Part shown: in pieces, positions 49,683 through 57,266 of the stretch
How positions within the stretch are numbered: position 1 is the first letter of the stretch
Layout: the number at the start of each line of letters is the position of its first letter
The notes under the pieces: generated by a model
Told to the model about the DNA's origin: nothing
What the model saw: only the letters and a program-made list of their open reading frames with translations
Databases searched by the model: none
Assembly (NCBI GenBank): GCA_010015805.1
Contig: ML978128.1
Coordinates: 806,001-870,000, forward strand
DNA from: Rhizodiscina lignyota
Lineage: Eukaryota; Ascomycota; Dothideomycetes; Aulographales; Rhizodiscinaceae
Direction of reading: 5' to 3'
DNA: 64,000 nucleotides
Translations under genes and position numbers: made by a program

Positions 49683-52600
49683 TTACTTGAAAGGCCCATA
49701 ATATTTGTGAGGATTAGGTGGAGTCAACTTCTGTTGCCAAACAGAGGCAGGGGCTACGAAACGGCCCTCGTCGCTTAATTTGCTCCTTAAATCGGCAGCC
49801 TTGGACAAAAGACCTAGCCTGGTTATCTCCTGATATGCATAATCCTCGGATGAATAACCGCGCAATTCCTGCATATATTGCCTCAGCTGTACGCGCGACT
49901 TAATGGCCAACCGTAAGCGCCTCTCGAAATCTGGACCCTCTAACGCTGACTCGAAAGCATTCCTCAACTCCCAACCACTGAACTCCTCTGTATCCAACTC
50001 CTCCCAATTGTCTATTATAGGACGAACTTCAATTATCATTCCATGATCTTTGGCCAAATCCATCAGGATGCCTTTTTTTGCATCGTTATTCAAGAGTCCG
50101 AGCTCGAGGGACATAGTGATCCGTGAGAAAACACTGTCGTCAATTATCCCTGGTCGATCGGTCGTGAGAAATACCAGGCCGCAATGCGTCTCGAGTGTTC
50201 TAAGAAGGAGCGCAAGGTTATCATCTTGTCCAGAACGCTCTTTTCGCCTTCTCAAAAATATAAGGTCGACATGTTCAAGTAACAGAACGGCGCCCCACCG
50301 TTCCGCTTGGCTTAGTATCGCTTTCAACGCTTGATCAGCCTTCAGGGTGTCTTTAACGGTATCTGCAGAGGATATGCAAATGATGGGCCGTTTAATGAAT
50401 TCAGCGGAATATTTCGCAGTAGTCGTCTTTCCGACCCCGGGACCGCCGTGGAGCAGGAATAATGTTGGAAATGAGGGTGTGTGGCCCGGCTTTGCGTAGG
50501 ACTGAATCACATTGATCACAATATCCTTCGATTCTGCAGGTAAATAAAGCCTTTCCATGGTCTCCGGATGGTACTGTGTCGATTGAAGAGTGTCTACGTC
50601 AAACTCTCCCCAAATATTATCGTCAAGACAGTAGGCTGGTATTTTTGGCGGGCAGGTAAGGGCAGTTAGTGGTTTCAGATGTGACTGCGGGACATGCCTC
50701 AGTTCCACATCAAGCTCTTGCAGTTGGCGCTCTCTAGCGGGTTGTAGCTGCTGGTCAACAATGATACGCCGACTCCTGGTAGCCGTTCTACAGTCCAACC
50801 AATGGACTTTACTGCCCAGCTCCCAATAGCGACGGCCACGTTCGATCAGCTGCCGACGGTAAAGATGCTCTTTTGGGAGATATCCTGCGGGCGTATACTT
50901 CAGATCAGTTATGTCCATCTCCCTGACAAACTGCGGTATCTTCAGATCGTAAAAGCACCTAACGAAACATTTCCCATTGTGACCGACTGCCCATGCCCTG
51001 ATGATGAGTGGACGGTATGCGGTTGGCGAGATTGGCTCCATCCCAGATAGCTCCGAAATGACGAAAGCCCGAAGGCTGCCATCTTCACGAGTATATATCG
51101 TGGAGTTCACCAGGTAAATCATTGGTAGTTCGGCGAATTGAATGACTTTGCACTTTCTTTCTTGGATCTCGACTAACTTGTGAGAGACAAGACTTAGATC
51201 GTCTTCGATGCTCGCCATCGACAGTTTCCTCTCGGGTGGATATCGTACGACAGACGACTGCGGCATTAGCGCCGAAGAATAAGCAACTGACGCTGACTGA
51301 GTATCCTGAGACAGCGATGCAGTGAGAAGGATTTTGATGAGTGAGCTGGTGTCATTCACTAAGTCGTTCAATTCTTTCAAGACGAATTCTCTTTCATCCC
51401 GACCCTCTGAATTTCCAGAAACTAAGAAGTCAATGCTGTCGATGATTATGAATGTGCACGGCGCCTCAGCACTCTTGAGACACTTTGTGAAGAGACCCCA
51501 CAGCAGTCGAATATCGCTAAGGTTTGCTCCTTTGAGGTTACCAGAAAGCTCTTCCGAGATTTCGGGACGCTGTTTCAAGAGCTGCCGAAGGAAGTCCTGT
51601 ATTAACACTCGGTAATTGCTTGGCTTTATCGATTGTCTATTGCCACAGAAGTGCCGTAGCACAACACATGTTTCGAAATTACTTTCTCCAAAAATCAAGA
51701 GCGGTGATACGAATGAGATACCGAATGTTTCTCTCTGAAGAATGTTGTTTCCATCGATCCACAGAAGCCGGGAGGTTTCCGACTCGATCCAGTCCATCAC
51801 CTTTTCGACTTTCAGAATGTTGCGCTGCGTAGATCTGTGTTGCCGCATCTCTGGTAGCTGCTCCGCAATCTTTTGTTGTTGCATGCGTGCTTCGTCAAAT
51901 TCATTCAACTCTGTGAACATCGCAGCCAATTGGCCATCCAAGTCACAGGACTCGTTTGAAAGACCTGCTGGAAGCTCACGGTCGATATAATCGTCCGTTG
52001 TCTCTTTACTGTCGACGCAATGTTGTTCTATCTGTGCTTCAATCCACCGACGGAAGAGATCACTGGTCTGTTCGATGTCACTTGGTTTCGAGAATTTGAT
52101 TGACTCTCCTTCAATAAGCTCCAGTATTTGCGACACTTTCGCAAGGACAACCTGTCCGGTGAAGTGGCTGTGAAGCTGAGTGATATGTATGATCTCCTCG
52201 TATGTTCGCTCAATTGATTGAACCACTGGTTCAAGCCCCTTCCACGGCCTCGTCATGGCTCTGAGAGTATTAACAAAGCGGTTCCTTGCGTAGAGCTTCA
52301 GTGCCTTAGCCAAGAACCTTTGGAAGGCTTCAAGGAGCCTCCCTATCGTCTCGACAAGTCTTGCGCGAGGAAAGTAAGTCGTCAAATGATCGATCATCGA
52401 GAACTTGGTCTTGATCGTTATCATGTACTCTTCAACATTCTTCTTCATTTCTTCATAGTTGACTTGAACAACAAGAAGAAGCTTGACGGCACCATATGTC
52501 AAAGCCACGTATTCCGGTGCTTGACCCACGAGCACGTCCATGACTTTTGTGTATTCATAAGCTGTCTCAGAAGCAGCTCGAAAACCACGTTTGACCATAT

Positions 52601-52976
52601 CAGCAAAGGCACGGTCTGATTCAGGTGTTTTGGCGGGATATTTGCTATCGTGTGCCTCCTTCGCTTGGTGTATCATCTTCAGGACGCTGCTCCGGCTGGC
52701 TTCGTAGGCCCTTCGCTCTTCAGGCTTGGCGAGTTCCAAAAACTCTTCAAGGCGCCGGTCCAGCTTGGCTTTGGATATTTGAACAGTCTCTTGCCGAAGT
52801 ATTTCGTTTGTCCATGCCGTCGAATCCCAGGCTTCACCAGCTTTCTTTTCCTGGCCCGGTACATTTCCTCTTGGGTGAGGCGCTTCTGTACCCACATCCA
52901 TGGCCTGCCAATTATCAGTCCCGATATCTTCTGGCTCAAGTGTTAATTCTGACGTTGCAAATGGCGGCTTTGACAT
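49683..52976 (-). CDS. STAND-like N-terminal region fused to C-terminal AAA ATPase
   Basis: This is a single exon of 1097 residues. About 75-240 is an all-helical segment like the N-terminal domain of fungal STAND/NLR proteins (DUF7708 type: KMIHQAKEAHDSKYPAKTPE, then YVALTYGAVKLLLVV). About 395-560 resembles a NACHT/STAND NTPase core (VMDWIESETSRLLWIDGN, VVLRHFCGNRQ, then FIIIDSIDFLVSG as Walker-B-like and IKILLTAS as sensor-like), but I see no GxxxxGK(S/T). About 610-760 resembles the domain (DUF7025-like) often placed before fungal AAA modules (EDGSLRAFVISELSGMEP). About 820-990 is an AAA core: Walker A GGPGVGKTT near 843-851, Walker B VLLLEHVD (His in place of the usual second acidic residue), and an FSRITMSLEL arginine-finger segment. 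Function is unknown; a fungal immune/allorecognition or remodelling ATPase is inferred. Confidence 0.8.
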   Translation of the reverse strand: MSKPPFATSELTLEPEDIGTDNWQAMDVGTEAPHPRGNVPGQEKKAGEAWDSTAWTNEILRQETVQISKAKLDRRLEEFLELAKPEERRAYEASRSSVLKMIHQAKEAHDSKYPAKTPESDRAFADMVKRGFRAASETAYEYTKVMDVLVGQAPEYVALTYGAVKLLLVVQVNYEEMKKNVEEYMITIKTKFSMIDHLTTYFPRARLVETIGRLLEAFQRFLAKALKLYARNRFVNTLRAMTRPWKGLEPVVQSIERTYEEIIHITQLHSHFTGQVVLAKVSQILELIEGESIKFSKPSDIEQTSDLFRRWIEAQIEQHCVDSKETTDDYIDRELPAGLSNESCDLDGQLAAMFTELNEFDEARMQQQKIAEQLPEMRQHRSTQRNILKVEKVMDWIESETSRLLWIDGNNILQRETFGISFVSPLLIFGESNFETCVVLRHFCGNRQSIKPSNYRVLIQDFLRQLLKQRPEISEELSGNLKGANLSDIRLLWGLFTKCLKSAEAPCTFIIIDSIDFLVSGNSEGRDEREFVLKELNDLVNDTSSLIKILLTASLSQDTQSASVAYSSALMPQSSVVRYPPERKLSMASIEDDLSLVSHKLVEIQERKCKVIQFAELPMIYLVNSTIYTREDGSLRAFVISELSGMEPISPTAYRPLIIRAWAVGHNGKCFVRCFYDLKIPQFVREMDITDLKYTPAGYLPKEHLYRRQLIERGRRYWELGSKVHWLDCRTATRSRRIIVDQQLQPARERQLQELDVELRHVPQSHLKPLTALTCPPKIPAYCLDDNIWGEFDVDTLQSTQYHPETMERLYLPAESKDIVINVIQSYAKPGHTPSFPTLFLLHGGPGVGKTTTAKYSAEFIKRPIICISSADTVKDTLKADQALKAILSQAERWGAVLLLEHVDLIFLRRRKERSGQDDNLALLLRTLETHCGLVFLTTDRPGIIDDSVFSRITMSLELGLLNNDAKKGILMDLAKDHGMIIEVRPIIDNWEELDTEEFSGWELRNAFESALEGPDFERRLRLAIKSRVQLRQYMQELRGYSSEDYAYQEITRLGLLSKAADLRSKLSDEGRFVAPASVWQQKLTPPNPHKYYGPFK

Positions 52977-53779: not shown

Positions 53780-55203
53780 TCATGATCCCTTCACGCAGTA
53801 CTGGTATCCCTTCCACAGATTGCTGCATTGGCTGTCAACCTGCGTATTCCATGACTGGAACTGCGCGAAAGTGAAGCCGAACTGCTGGCCCAGCGTCCAG
53901 CAATTGTCCCCGTCGGCGACGGTGTAAAGCTGCGGGCAGGAGCTCGAGACGCCGGGACCAAGCGGTGCCGACGACGAAGAAGATGAAGAGGCAGAGGAAG
54001 TTGTGGATGGGGATGGGGAGGCCGTTGTGGCCGCGGCAGCAGCGACAGAGGCAGAGGAAGAAGGCGTTGATGGAGTTTCGGCCTTGGCTCCGTTGTCAGC
54101 GGGAGAGCCGATCGAGGGGACGCCGGGGACGTCAGTTGCTTGTGGAGAATAGCTGGGGAAACCGCTGAAAGCTGGTGCGCTGAACGTGTGGATGGTCGTG
54201 ATCCTGGTCTTGGTCTTGGTGGAGGTAGGAGTGCTAGTTGGTGCGACAGTAGTAGTCGGCTGAGCGGTAGTCGACGGGCTCTGAACAGCAGGAGTTGAGA
54301 TGGCAGGTGGGGTATACACCGGCGTAGATGCCGCTGAAGTAGGCGCCACCGAAGTAGGCGATGCTACTGAAGTAGGTGGTGCTGCTGAAGTAGGGGCTGC
54401 GGTAGACTCAGCTGGGGGCGAGGTGTTGACAGGCACGTCAGCGCCATCGAGGTTGCAGTCGTGAGGTGCGGATGTCCAGCCAACGAGCCTGTTGGCAATG
54501 TCCGAAGCGTAGCAGTGAGTGGCTACGCCGGCGGCAAGGTTGTTGTCGGTGACCGATCCTGAGTTGTAAATGCGAGCGGCGCGGTAGTACTTGGAGACGT
54601 CGTCGGTGCCAGCCTCAGAAATGCACTGCTTCAAGCCGTCGCCCTGAGAAGTTCCCTCGACACCATCTCTGAGCATCTGGGTGATGGTATCAGCCGGGCA
54701 AGGGTTCTGAACACTGCCACCGTCGTTGCAGGTCGCTGCGCCATCGTGATCTTGCATGAGGCCAGGGTTGCGGACGCCATAGTTGGTTGTTGGAGCGCGG
54801 GGGCAGCCGTTCGATTCCTGCATCATAACGGCACTGCAAGCTAGTCAGCGGCCAGCGTTTATAGAAGATTCGTACTTTCGACTTACAGAATGAACTGCGC
54901 TGGAACACCAGACTCCGAGGCAACAGTTTGGATACCGCTCTTCATATCACTGATCTCCTGATCGGACGGGTTGTCAACGTCCCACTGACTGCAGGAGCCC
55001 TTCATGATGCTCTCGTTCTCCGAGAACATCGTGTCGAAGTCCTGCCACGTGCTTTGGGCCGGCCACGAGGGAGGAGCCCCGCTCCCAGTGTACTGTGTGT
55101 AAGTGGTTGCTGCTCGCTTATCAAAGAGAGAGGCACGGAGCGGTGCTCCAGAAATGAGTGTCGGCAAGCTGCCAGCAGCAAGCAAAGCAAAAATGAATGA
55201 CAT
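53780..55203 (-). CDS. Secreted lysozyme-like protein with C-terminal LysM
   Basis: Exons 55203-54887 and 54833-53780 give 456 residues. A signal peptide (MSFIFALLAAGSLPTLISGA) and a KR site near residue 29-30 suggest processing. Residues about 40-220 look like a lysozyme/transglycosylase-like domain: GVPAQFILAVMMQESNG (candidate catalytic Glu), NPGLMQ, KYYRAARIYNSGSV and CYASDIANRLVGW. A Ser/Thr/Pro-rich linker follows, with short TSVA/TSAA repeats. The last ~50 residues are one LysM (YTVADGDNCWTLGQQFGFTF, then NLWKGYQYCVKG), which binds chitin or peptidoglycan. An extracellular muramidase acting on bacteria is inferred. Confidence 0.85.
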
Positions 55204-57266
55204 GGTGAAAAGAGTGACTGAGAGGAAGAAACCTAAGCTTCGCTCACGGATCGAAAACTGTGCGATACCTCATGAAAGGAGACAATGGGAGTGAGCCCTT
55301 ATATGAAAATCTTCGAGCAGGGAAGCGCCGCGGGGTGCCATGACAGTGGCATGACTAGTCACCACACAGCTGGTCAAAGGCAGGTAGCGCGGGAGGTGGA
55401 CTGAATGTGACGTGCAAAGTGACATCCATTGCGCCTCACTGGCTGCAGTCTTTGACGGCTCTAGACGCGTTCGGGAGAGCGGCGAGCGTCCTTGTTGGAC
55501 AGTGTCGATGTTCATCTCCTCGAAATGAGAGCAAAGGAGCACGCATCCCTGGGAAGCTTGTTTCGAACAAAGCAGCTGTGGCGTCCGGGCTTTCGGCTAG
55601 TGCAGGGTTCTCGCCGCGTACCTGACGATCTTTCTGGCCATTCTTTGTCTTATTGGCTGTGTCTAGCCTTTCGAACGAGCCTCAACCCCACCAATGCCAC
55701 CTTTCACACGGCTTTCAGACAGCGGACTCGCAGTCTTACTGCTATAGCCCCGGCCGTGCAGCTATTCTTCCACAGACGAGCTGCATGGTTGCGCCGCCGA
55801 GAGAAAAGAAATGGAATGCATGCCCAGCGGTTGTTTCTGTTTCTAGCATGTCACCCTGGTTTGTTTCTGGAATTGTCAAACTCGCCGCCTATCGTAAGCA
55901 GGCATGAAAGAGAAACAAAAAACGCAACATGTTTGTTCACGAGACCGGCTCGCCGAAGACACGGCGTCTGCTGAGCTGCTCTCGCCATCTTTCGTTCCAG
56001 TTGCGGAGGACACCGAGGAGGCGGTGCTACGCTCCGCAAGCTCGGCGGTCGTGCCATTTCGGATGGTTTGGAACAAGCAAAGCTGGGCGGAGGAATGGGA
56101 GCGGAGGACTGACCTCTTCGCACCCCTTTACGTAAAGTGGAAGGTCTCAAGTCACTCAGCGTGAACGCGTGGTGATTCCTTCGCTTGACGCTCGGAGGGC
56201 GAACTTCGTGGTTCCCTGCAGAGGGAAGAGCTTCCACGCCCTGCAGTTGGTCGAGATCTTGTTTCCAAGATGCCCCTGAGCGACTCCGAGCGGAACGGTG
56301 ACCCGGGGCGGGCGTCGCTAAGTGAGTACATAAGGGTACATAGGGGCGGTAAGCTATTGCGCAAGCGACGAAAGACAGCTGCGAAATCCCTGAGGCTAAA
56401 GTGAACGTTTCACGATGCTCACGTTCGCGAGAGTTGAGGGAACGGATTGGTCGCATCGACCACCGTCAGGGCGTCTAGTGCCCGCCTCGGCCTGACCCAC
56501 CCGACTTGTCTCTCCCCGGGAAAAAATGAGAGCTGGAGCGGATTTCGGATCCCAGGGTGGCCTTTGCGATCTCATGCGGTCAATGTTGCACAGCCGCACA
56601 TTCCTCCTGTGGCTGAGGAGCGCATGAATATTGACTGTCCAAGCCGCAGTCCAGATGCCTCTTTGCCACGAGGCATTTCATTGATGGCTGTCTCTCATTA
56701 GCGTCTATCTAAATCCAATATCTGAGTGAGGAACAATTGCGGAATGGCATGTCTTAGAGGTTGTGCACGAACAAACTGTTTGCGCCGTCGCGGGAAAATG
56801 CAGAGGATTTTGTTTTATGAGGCGTTGCCTGCGCAAATGACCTGCTCCTCTTGGACGCCAATGGAGCAATGTTTCGACGATCGCAGCAACCAAGATTCAC
56901 TTCGGAGATTCGTATGGAGCCGAAGTCGGGTTGAAGATGCGATTTGGAAGTTGAAAAGCTTGGGACTATTTGACCTCCGGTCTGCGACAGCTTCGGCGTG
57001 GCTTGAGAACGTCGAGCCAACCAGACGGGAAAGTGAGCGACACGATTTCAAGCAAGATCTGGCAGGTAAGATGATGCATCACAATCAACGAGAGGCAGGT
57101 TACAGAGCTTTGAAGTGCTCATAACTTCATTTCGGATCTCGTATGACCGGCTACTAGTTCAGGTCATTGTCGTGTCAAGAAAAGTCTATTCGCGCCGGCT
57201 TTTGAAGTTCCACGCTGCCTATTGTACATGTCTGGGAGATTGATTCTTCGAGAATGTGAGACATGC
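55204..57266. other. 2-kb gene-poor region
   Basis: It holds the LysM gene promoter, with TATAAG on the minus strand at 55298-55303, about 95 bp before the ATG. There is a 201-codon minus-strand ORF at 55851-56456 without recognisable features. A plus-strand ORF at 56744-57124 (126 codons, with RVEDAIWKLKSLGLFDL) could be a small gene or remnant. Neither is supported enough to call. Confidence 0.45.

Follow-up and report, generated by a model that had tools for sequence, protein, structure and literature searches.

A single-exon gene joining an NLR-like half to an AAA half

The window analysed here, a 64,000-nucleotide stretch of the Rhizodiscina lignyota genome (assembly GCA_010015805.1, contig ML978128.1, positions 806,001 to 870,000; C8:806001-870000 in the genome coordinates used below), carries on its minus strand a single-exon gene (P0001, 49683..52976) in which parts typical of fungal NOD-like receptors (NLRs) are joined to an AAA ATPase module. 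The frame runs uninterrupted from an ATG at 52976 to a stop codon that ends at 49683 (1097 amino acids, no N) and encodes four Pfam domains, all above the curated cut-offs: a helical N-terminal DUF7708 domain (residues 133-271, 52164..52580; PF24809, 4.1e-28), an NPHP3_N/NACHT core without a P-loop (residues 383-552, 51321..51830; PF24883), a DUF7025 domain that begins ~50 residues past this core (residues 605-700, 50877..51164; PF22942, 1.3e-15, found again in the genome scan) and an AAA core (residues 841-960, 50097..50456; PF00004, 1.9e-16, composed of two stretches). The NPHP3_N match has an E-value of 5.8e-15 with the whole protein, in two stretches, and of 2.3e-11 with the core region alone. 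Frame and Pfam matches together confirm the architecture proposed in the initial annotation, i.e. an NLR-type N-terminus, a NACHT-like core, DUF7025 and AAA on one exon. We rejected a chance frame because a stop-free run of 1098 codons at ~47.5% GC has a hand-estimated probability near 1e-25, and we also rejected two separate genes, as the frame contains neither stop nor gap. The DUF7708 region appeared all-helical in a low-confidence single-sequence AlphaFold model (mean predicted local distance difference test score, pLDDT, 45.4).

Ordinary NPHP3_N proteins display LWxxGIPGAGKT at Walker A, with two Gly and the Lys invariant (19/19), and the corresponding position of the window core reads LLWIDGNNILQRETF, with GNNILQRETF (residues 409-418, 51723..51752) in place of the P-loop in the alignment. 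A P-loop in this core had been named beforehand as the finding that would speak against a degenerate NTPase; scanning for GxxxxGK[ST], both directly and across one GT-AG intron of 40-170 bases, revealed none, and the same scan recovered the P-loop in 5/5 positive control genes, in two of them only across an intron. A P-loop concealed by an intron was rejected on this basis. The Walker-B-like strand is retained (TFIIIDSID, residues 508-516, 51429..51455), and the first Asp of its IIIDSID segment is invariant in all nine cores that are fused or paired (see below), while few of them retain the D-E that comes after the Walker-B Asp in the NACHT motif. With the Pfam match and the scan, this bears out the earlier description of a NACHT-like core that has a Walker-B-like strand and no P-loop. 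An hhalign comparison with 19 ordinary NPHP3_N cores (one comparison; probability 98.9, E 3.4e-17) yielded an alignment that breaks at Walker A, and this profile comparison identifies the first core as a degenerate NPHP3_N homologue rather than an unrelated domain.

In the course of these scans we observed that introns can interrupt the P-loop codons even in ordinary NPHP3_N genes, for example at C2:2674870 and C3:3048620 (L027, L028/L063; introns of 49 and 53 base pairs; GSG^KT, GAG^KT) and likewise in L062 and L064, so that reading such genes frame by frame overlooks their P-loops.

P-loop-less cores and their DUF7025-AAA neighbours

Scans of the genome (33.4 Mb, 29 contigs) located 17 DUF7025 loci, of which one is the fusion in the window, eight lie beside a gene for a P-loop-less core and eight stand alone. 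The paired loci, each with a degenerate core gene within ~5 kb, are found at C16:431k, C1:114k, C1:1276k, C1:2911k, C3:231k, C4:1775k, C9:716k and C12:855k. Seven of the eight pairs are divergent; in the sole convergent pair (C1a, C1:114347-117730; L007, L019) the AAA match and the core-gene frame end ~100 base pairs apart. The presence of neighbours at eight places and of a single protein at the ninth constitutes a Rosetta-stone pattern. DUF7708 was found in six of the eight partners, and the C9 and C12 pairs were recognised through the core alone, the C9 core being matched by a profile built without C9 (4.6e-12). The N-terminus of the C12 partner (C12:852972-851919, L083) gave a SesA-like match that was weak and fell short of the cut-off (E 0.014). 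Pfam NPHP3_N matched 8/9 paired or fused cores at E <= 1, and a genome search with one paired core matched no other cores than paired ones: itself, C1b, C3 and C9 (the latter at E 0.12).

The linkage was also evident from the DUF7708 side. Ranked by score, the top seven DUF7708 genes in the genome comprise the window gene and the six partners that contain this domain. With the window excluded, a DUF7025 gene occurs within 5.5 kb of six of the 13 DUF7708 genes (E <= 0.01), compared to a mean of 0.07 upon random placement (0/200000 placements as high; nine contigs lumped and positions rounded). Weaker DUF7708 matches at C16:478k, C10:1201k and C2:2420k (E 0.014-0.25) are outside this count. For the lone DUF7025 genes, ~4.4 kb upstream were read at C10 and ~1.5 kb at the other seven; beyond these distances their lone status rests on Pfam scans at E <= 10 (68 and 23 candidates scored). 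An ordinary NPHP3_N gene ~8 kb from the lone C3:983k gene was left out of the pair count. Elsewhere, an AAA fragment interrupted by two in-frame stops at C1:3038007-3038243 (L015) looks like a relic of the DUF7025-AAA family.

Loss of the P-loop coincided with pairing: it is retained in 0/9 paired or fused cores versus 5/5 unpaired DUF7708-NPHP3_N genes (Fisher test by hand, 1/2002), and none of these five has a DUF7025 gene nearby. Two DUF7708 genes without an NPHP3_N match (C4:1130k and C12:419k) are in neither count, and the weaker DUF7708 match at C10:1201k (L062) has a P-loop that spans a presumed intron. Of the 30 top-scoring NPHP3_N loci in the genome, 27 yielded a P-loop (23 directly, 4 across a presumed intron). 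No P-loop match was obtained for L040, L055 and L057, of which L040 keeps the GxGK columns in the alignment; the intron-made match in L036 resembles a chance match, yet the GxGK columns are kept there as well.

These counts bear on the possibility that the window gene is an ordinary fungal NLR whose P-loop is non-canonical and which carries an additional AAA domain, its neighbourhood merely reflecting the clustering of NLR genes. Non-canonical P-loops are reported in fungal NLRs in the excerpted part of PMC4986451, and the contents of a Sordariales survey (PMC12258605) include a section on non-canonical NLR domains. On the other hand, the P-loop is gone from every paired or fused core, the partner is a DUF7025-AAA gene every time, and the five P-loop-bearing DUF7708-NPHP3_N genes lack such a neighbour. 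Moreover, neither a winged helix nor repeats were seen in the window gene or in the partner core frames, the latter ending by eye ~25-75 amino acids past the last core strand, where a further exon is possible. We therefore consider the ordinary NLR very improbable.

Divergence of the two halves and state of the fused AAA module

We then compared the trees of the two halves, the AAA trees comprising 17 of 18 rows (the C1:3038k fragment, with 62 columns, was dropped). Paired and lone copies separate with one change in the AAA tree (5.9 in shuffles, 0/20000; 0/500 under the mixture model), and C1b with C1c as well as C1a with C16 are grouped in both the AAA tree and the core tree. Tree distances of the halves are correlated over all nine cases (r 0.59; 28/20000 permutations as high) and over the eight two-gene pairs without the window gene (r 0.77; 1/20000), as are plain differences (r 0.44 over nine, 254/20000; r 0.57 over the eight pairs, 65/20000). 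The AAA module of the window gene adjoins the paired C3 copy (support 92/79) on a very long branch. Taken together, these sequence comparisons indicate that the core and AAA halves co-diversified.

The AAA module of the fusion departs from its paralogues in several motifs. Walker A is intact (GGPGVGKTT, residues 844-852, 50421..50447). By contrast, Walker B is altered (LLLEHVDLIF, residues 898-907, 50256..50285), with Glu in place of Asp and His where Glu is expected (LLLEHVD); 15/16 other DUF7025-AAA copies have DEAD or DECD at this position (C12 only across a presumed intron), the exception being the lone gene C2u (C2:2385539-2386966, L073), whose Walker B is likewise degenerate (KEAD). Sensor 1 (LTTDRPG, residues 937-943, 50148..50168) contains TTDR, i.e. 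Asp instead of the Asn found in 16/16 others, and the lid motif (FSGWELRN, residues 999-1006, 49959..49982) has SGW where 14/15 readable others have NGR (NGH in C2u; C6b not covered). Over 49 columns conserved in the paralogues the window AAA keeps 30 (61%), versus 79-100% in fifteen paralogues and 70% in C2u. Also missing from it is the N-terminal stretch of the AAA protein (model columns ~80-160), which is present in 14/16 paralogues; C9p and C2u are incomplete there. The His in Walker B noted in the initial annotation was thus correct and is accompanied by further altered residues; the "one intact NTPase" claimed there holds for Walker A and fails for Walker B, for sensor 1 and for the lid.

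In AAA proteins that lack the Walker-B Glu, hydrolysis is usually blocked and ATP binding preserved. On the basis that Walker A is kept and both the Walker-B Glu and the sensor-1 Asn are lost, it is probable that the fused form still binds ATP but does not turn it over.

Such changes could also signal that the window gene is a copy under decay or relaxation, generated when a pair fused by chance, with an AAA module that is losing function. The end branch of its AAA module (3.81 versus a median of 1.04), the 19/49 conserved columns that have changed and a poorer fit to the co-diversification than that of the other pairs speak for decay. Against this, 1097 codons have stayed open, Walker A is kept and the four Pfam domains score above their cut-offs; the apparent relic at C1:3038k, a fragment interrupted by two stops, looks different. 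We regard decay as unlikely.

The pair might also be a genuine unit in which the AAA protein acts as an antidote to the helical protein or as machinery for its disposal, following toxin-antitoxin or spore-killer logic. AAA proteins commonly unfold partners, and an antidote role would suit genes that are linked, mostly divergent and multi-copy, as well as their fast divergence (the eight partner cores share 16-22% identity with the window core). A toxin fused to an antidote with a crippled AAA module would be odd, though, and the (poor) model of the N-terminus had no significant structural match. This explanation appears improbable to us.

Further searches placed the weak PADLOC IetA and NCBIfam matches of the window gene in its AAA half, and a close-relative search of viral and prokaryote collections returned no close relatives. 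Seven of ten other frames of the window matched ordinary Pfam families (sugar transporter, NmrA, Ras, TFIIB, FGGY kinase, M28 peptidase and PA domain). The adjoining gene (53780-55269, minus strand) encodes a secreted-type protein with a Ser/Thr/Pro-rich linker and, by eye, a LysM-like C-terminal stretch; its frame 53783-54844 had no Pfam match at 1e-5.

A candidate two-component module and its relation to known systems

We favour, at a probability of about 0.6, the interpretation that the window gene is the one-polypeptide form of a two-component module in which a degenerate NLR switch is served by an AAA ATPase. The domains, P-loop losses, linkage, orientation, co-divergence and fusion underlying this interpretation are observed, and from them we infer the mechanism. 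The first component would be an NLR-derived protein composed of an N-terminal region (DUF7708 where detectable) and a P-loop-less NPHP3_N/NACHT core, no longer able to switch through ATP binding. The second component, a DUF7025-AAA ATPase, would set the state of the first by using the core as adaptor or substrate, and the helical N-terminus could serve as the output that is shown or concealed as the AAA ring cycles. The N-terminal region is the usual adaptor position in AAA machines, and in the fusion the core takes the place of this region. The fused form itself may then be a locked or slow ATP switch, or a regulatory subunit. That the AAA module replaced the switch function of the core, as suggested in the initial annotation, gains indirect support from the eight further P-loop-less cores that lie beside DUF7025-AAA genes.

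Several observations weigh against the two-component interpretation. All genomic evidence comes from one genome. The C1a pair is convergent, a hydrolase-like frame separates the two genes of the C3 pair, the partners in C9 and C12 have no detectable DUF7708, and the C12 core, examined because of its position, is a weak match (0.0017). Two of the five P-loop-bearing controls (C5:687k and C8:371k) do not reach the DUF7708 cut-off when taken as single matches. In the AAA tree the branch between paired and lone copies has low support (58/49, in 53% of bootstrap trees), and placing the window AAA among the lone copies was not rejected by the approximately unbiased test (p 0.19). The window core groups with C4p (support 46) whereas its AAA module groups with C3p, and including the window gene weakens the correlation of the halves. 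Finally, fold searches of the PDB gave no match at E <= 0.001 for the N-terminus model or for a single-sequence AlphaFold model of the core (mean pLDDT 41.5). For residues 395-560 homology to the NPHP3_N core is upheld by hhalign, while the fold received no backing from this poor model; KaiC-, RadA- and AAA-type folds in the sub-threshold list of the core's fold search appeared amid unrelated ones and were not counted as evidence. When the profile of the nine cores was searched against the PDB, the best E was 0.16.

A broader conclusion, which we hold tentatively and at somewhat less than even odds, is that these genes represent an undescribed fungal family of two-component signalling systems, each consisting of an NLR that has lost its own nucleotide switch and a dedicated AAA protein, encoded back-to-back or fused, that drives it. 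If so, this would be an NLR-like system whose ATPase switch has been passed to another class of ATPase. DUF7708 and DUF7025, both of unknown function, are now linked, each with a testable partner. Surveys that seek a nucleotide-binding domain together with repeats would tend to overlook such pairs. No mention of DUF7708 or DUF7025 was found in the literature searched, and no fungal NLR-AAA pair is described in titles or abstract openings among the matches listed.

The closest known relatives of the NLR-like half are fungal NLRs (STAND proteins) of the NPHP3_N/NACHT type, with which it shares a homologous core; DUF7708-like domains also head the five P-loop-bearing NPHP3_N genes of this genome, and helical N-termini of fungal NLRs are the subject of PMC9815663, judging by its excerpt. 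Unlike these proteins, the window gene has lost the P-loop, shows no winged helix or repeats and has an AAA module attached. In its arrangement the module resembles the NWD2/HET-S and sesA/sesB/STAND clusters, described in the excerpted part of PMC3321046 as adjacent, in some cases divergent genes with co-evolving parts that are proposed to form a functional unit: as with NWD2/HET-S, a STAND-type gene lies beside a partner gene, here in eight pairs in one genome. In those clusters, however, the STAND protein is the signal-transducing ATPase and its partner the effector, linked by a prion-like motif (PMC3321046, same excerpt), whereas in the present module the STAND protein has no P-loop and is paired with an AAA ATPase. 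Head-to-head arrangement is shared with plant pairs of a sensor and a helper NLR, among them RGA4/RGA5 and RRS1/RPS4, in which, according to an excerpt of PMC9528088, the P-loop of the helper is needed and that of the sensor is not, with both P-loops needed in Pik-1/Pik-2; in the plant pairs, however, both members are NLRs. Among fungi, the available part of the Sordariales survey gives 13 head-to-head pairs in 225 two-NLR clusters and judges them rare (PMC12258605). The AAA half, in turn, follows the DUF7025-AAA-lid order of stand-alone fungal DUF7025-AAA proteins, which differ from the window gene by having an N-terminal region of their own rather than an NLR core and a Walker B that is canonical in the readable copies except C2u.

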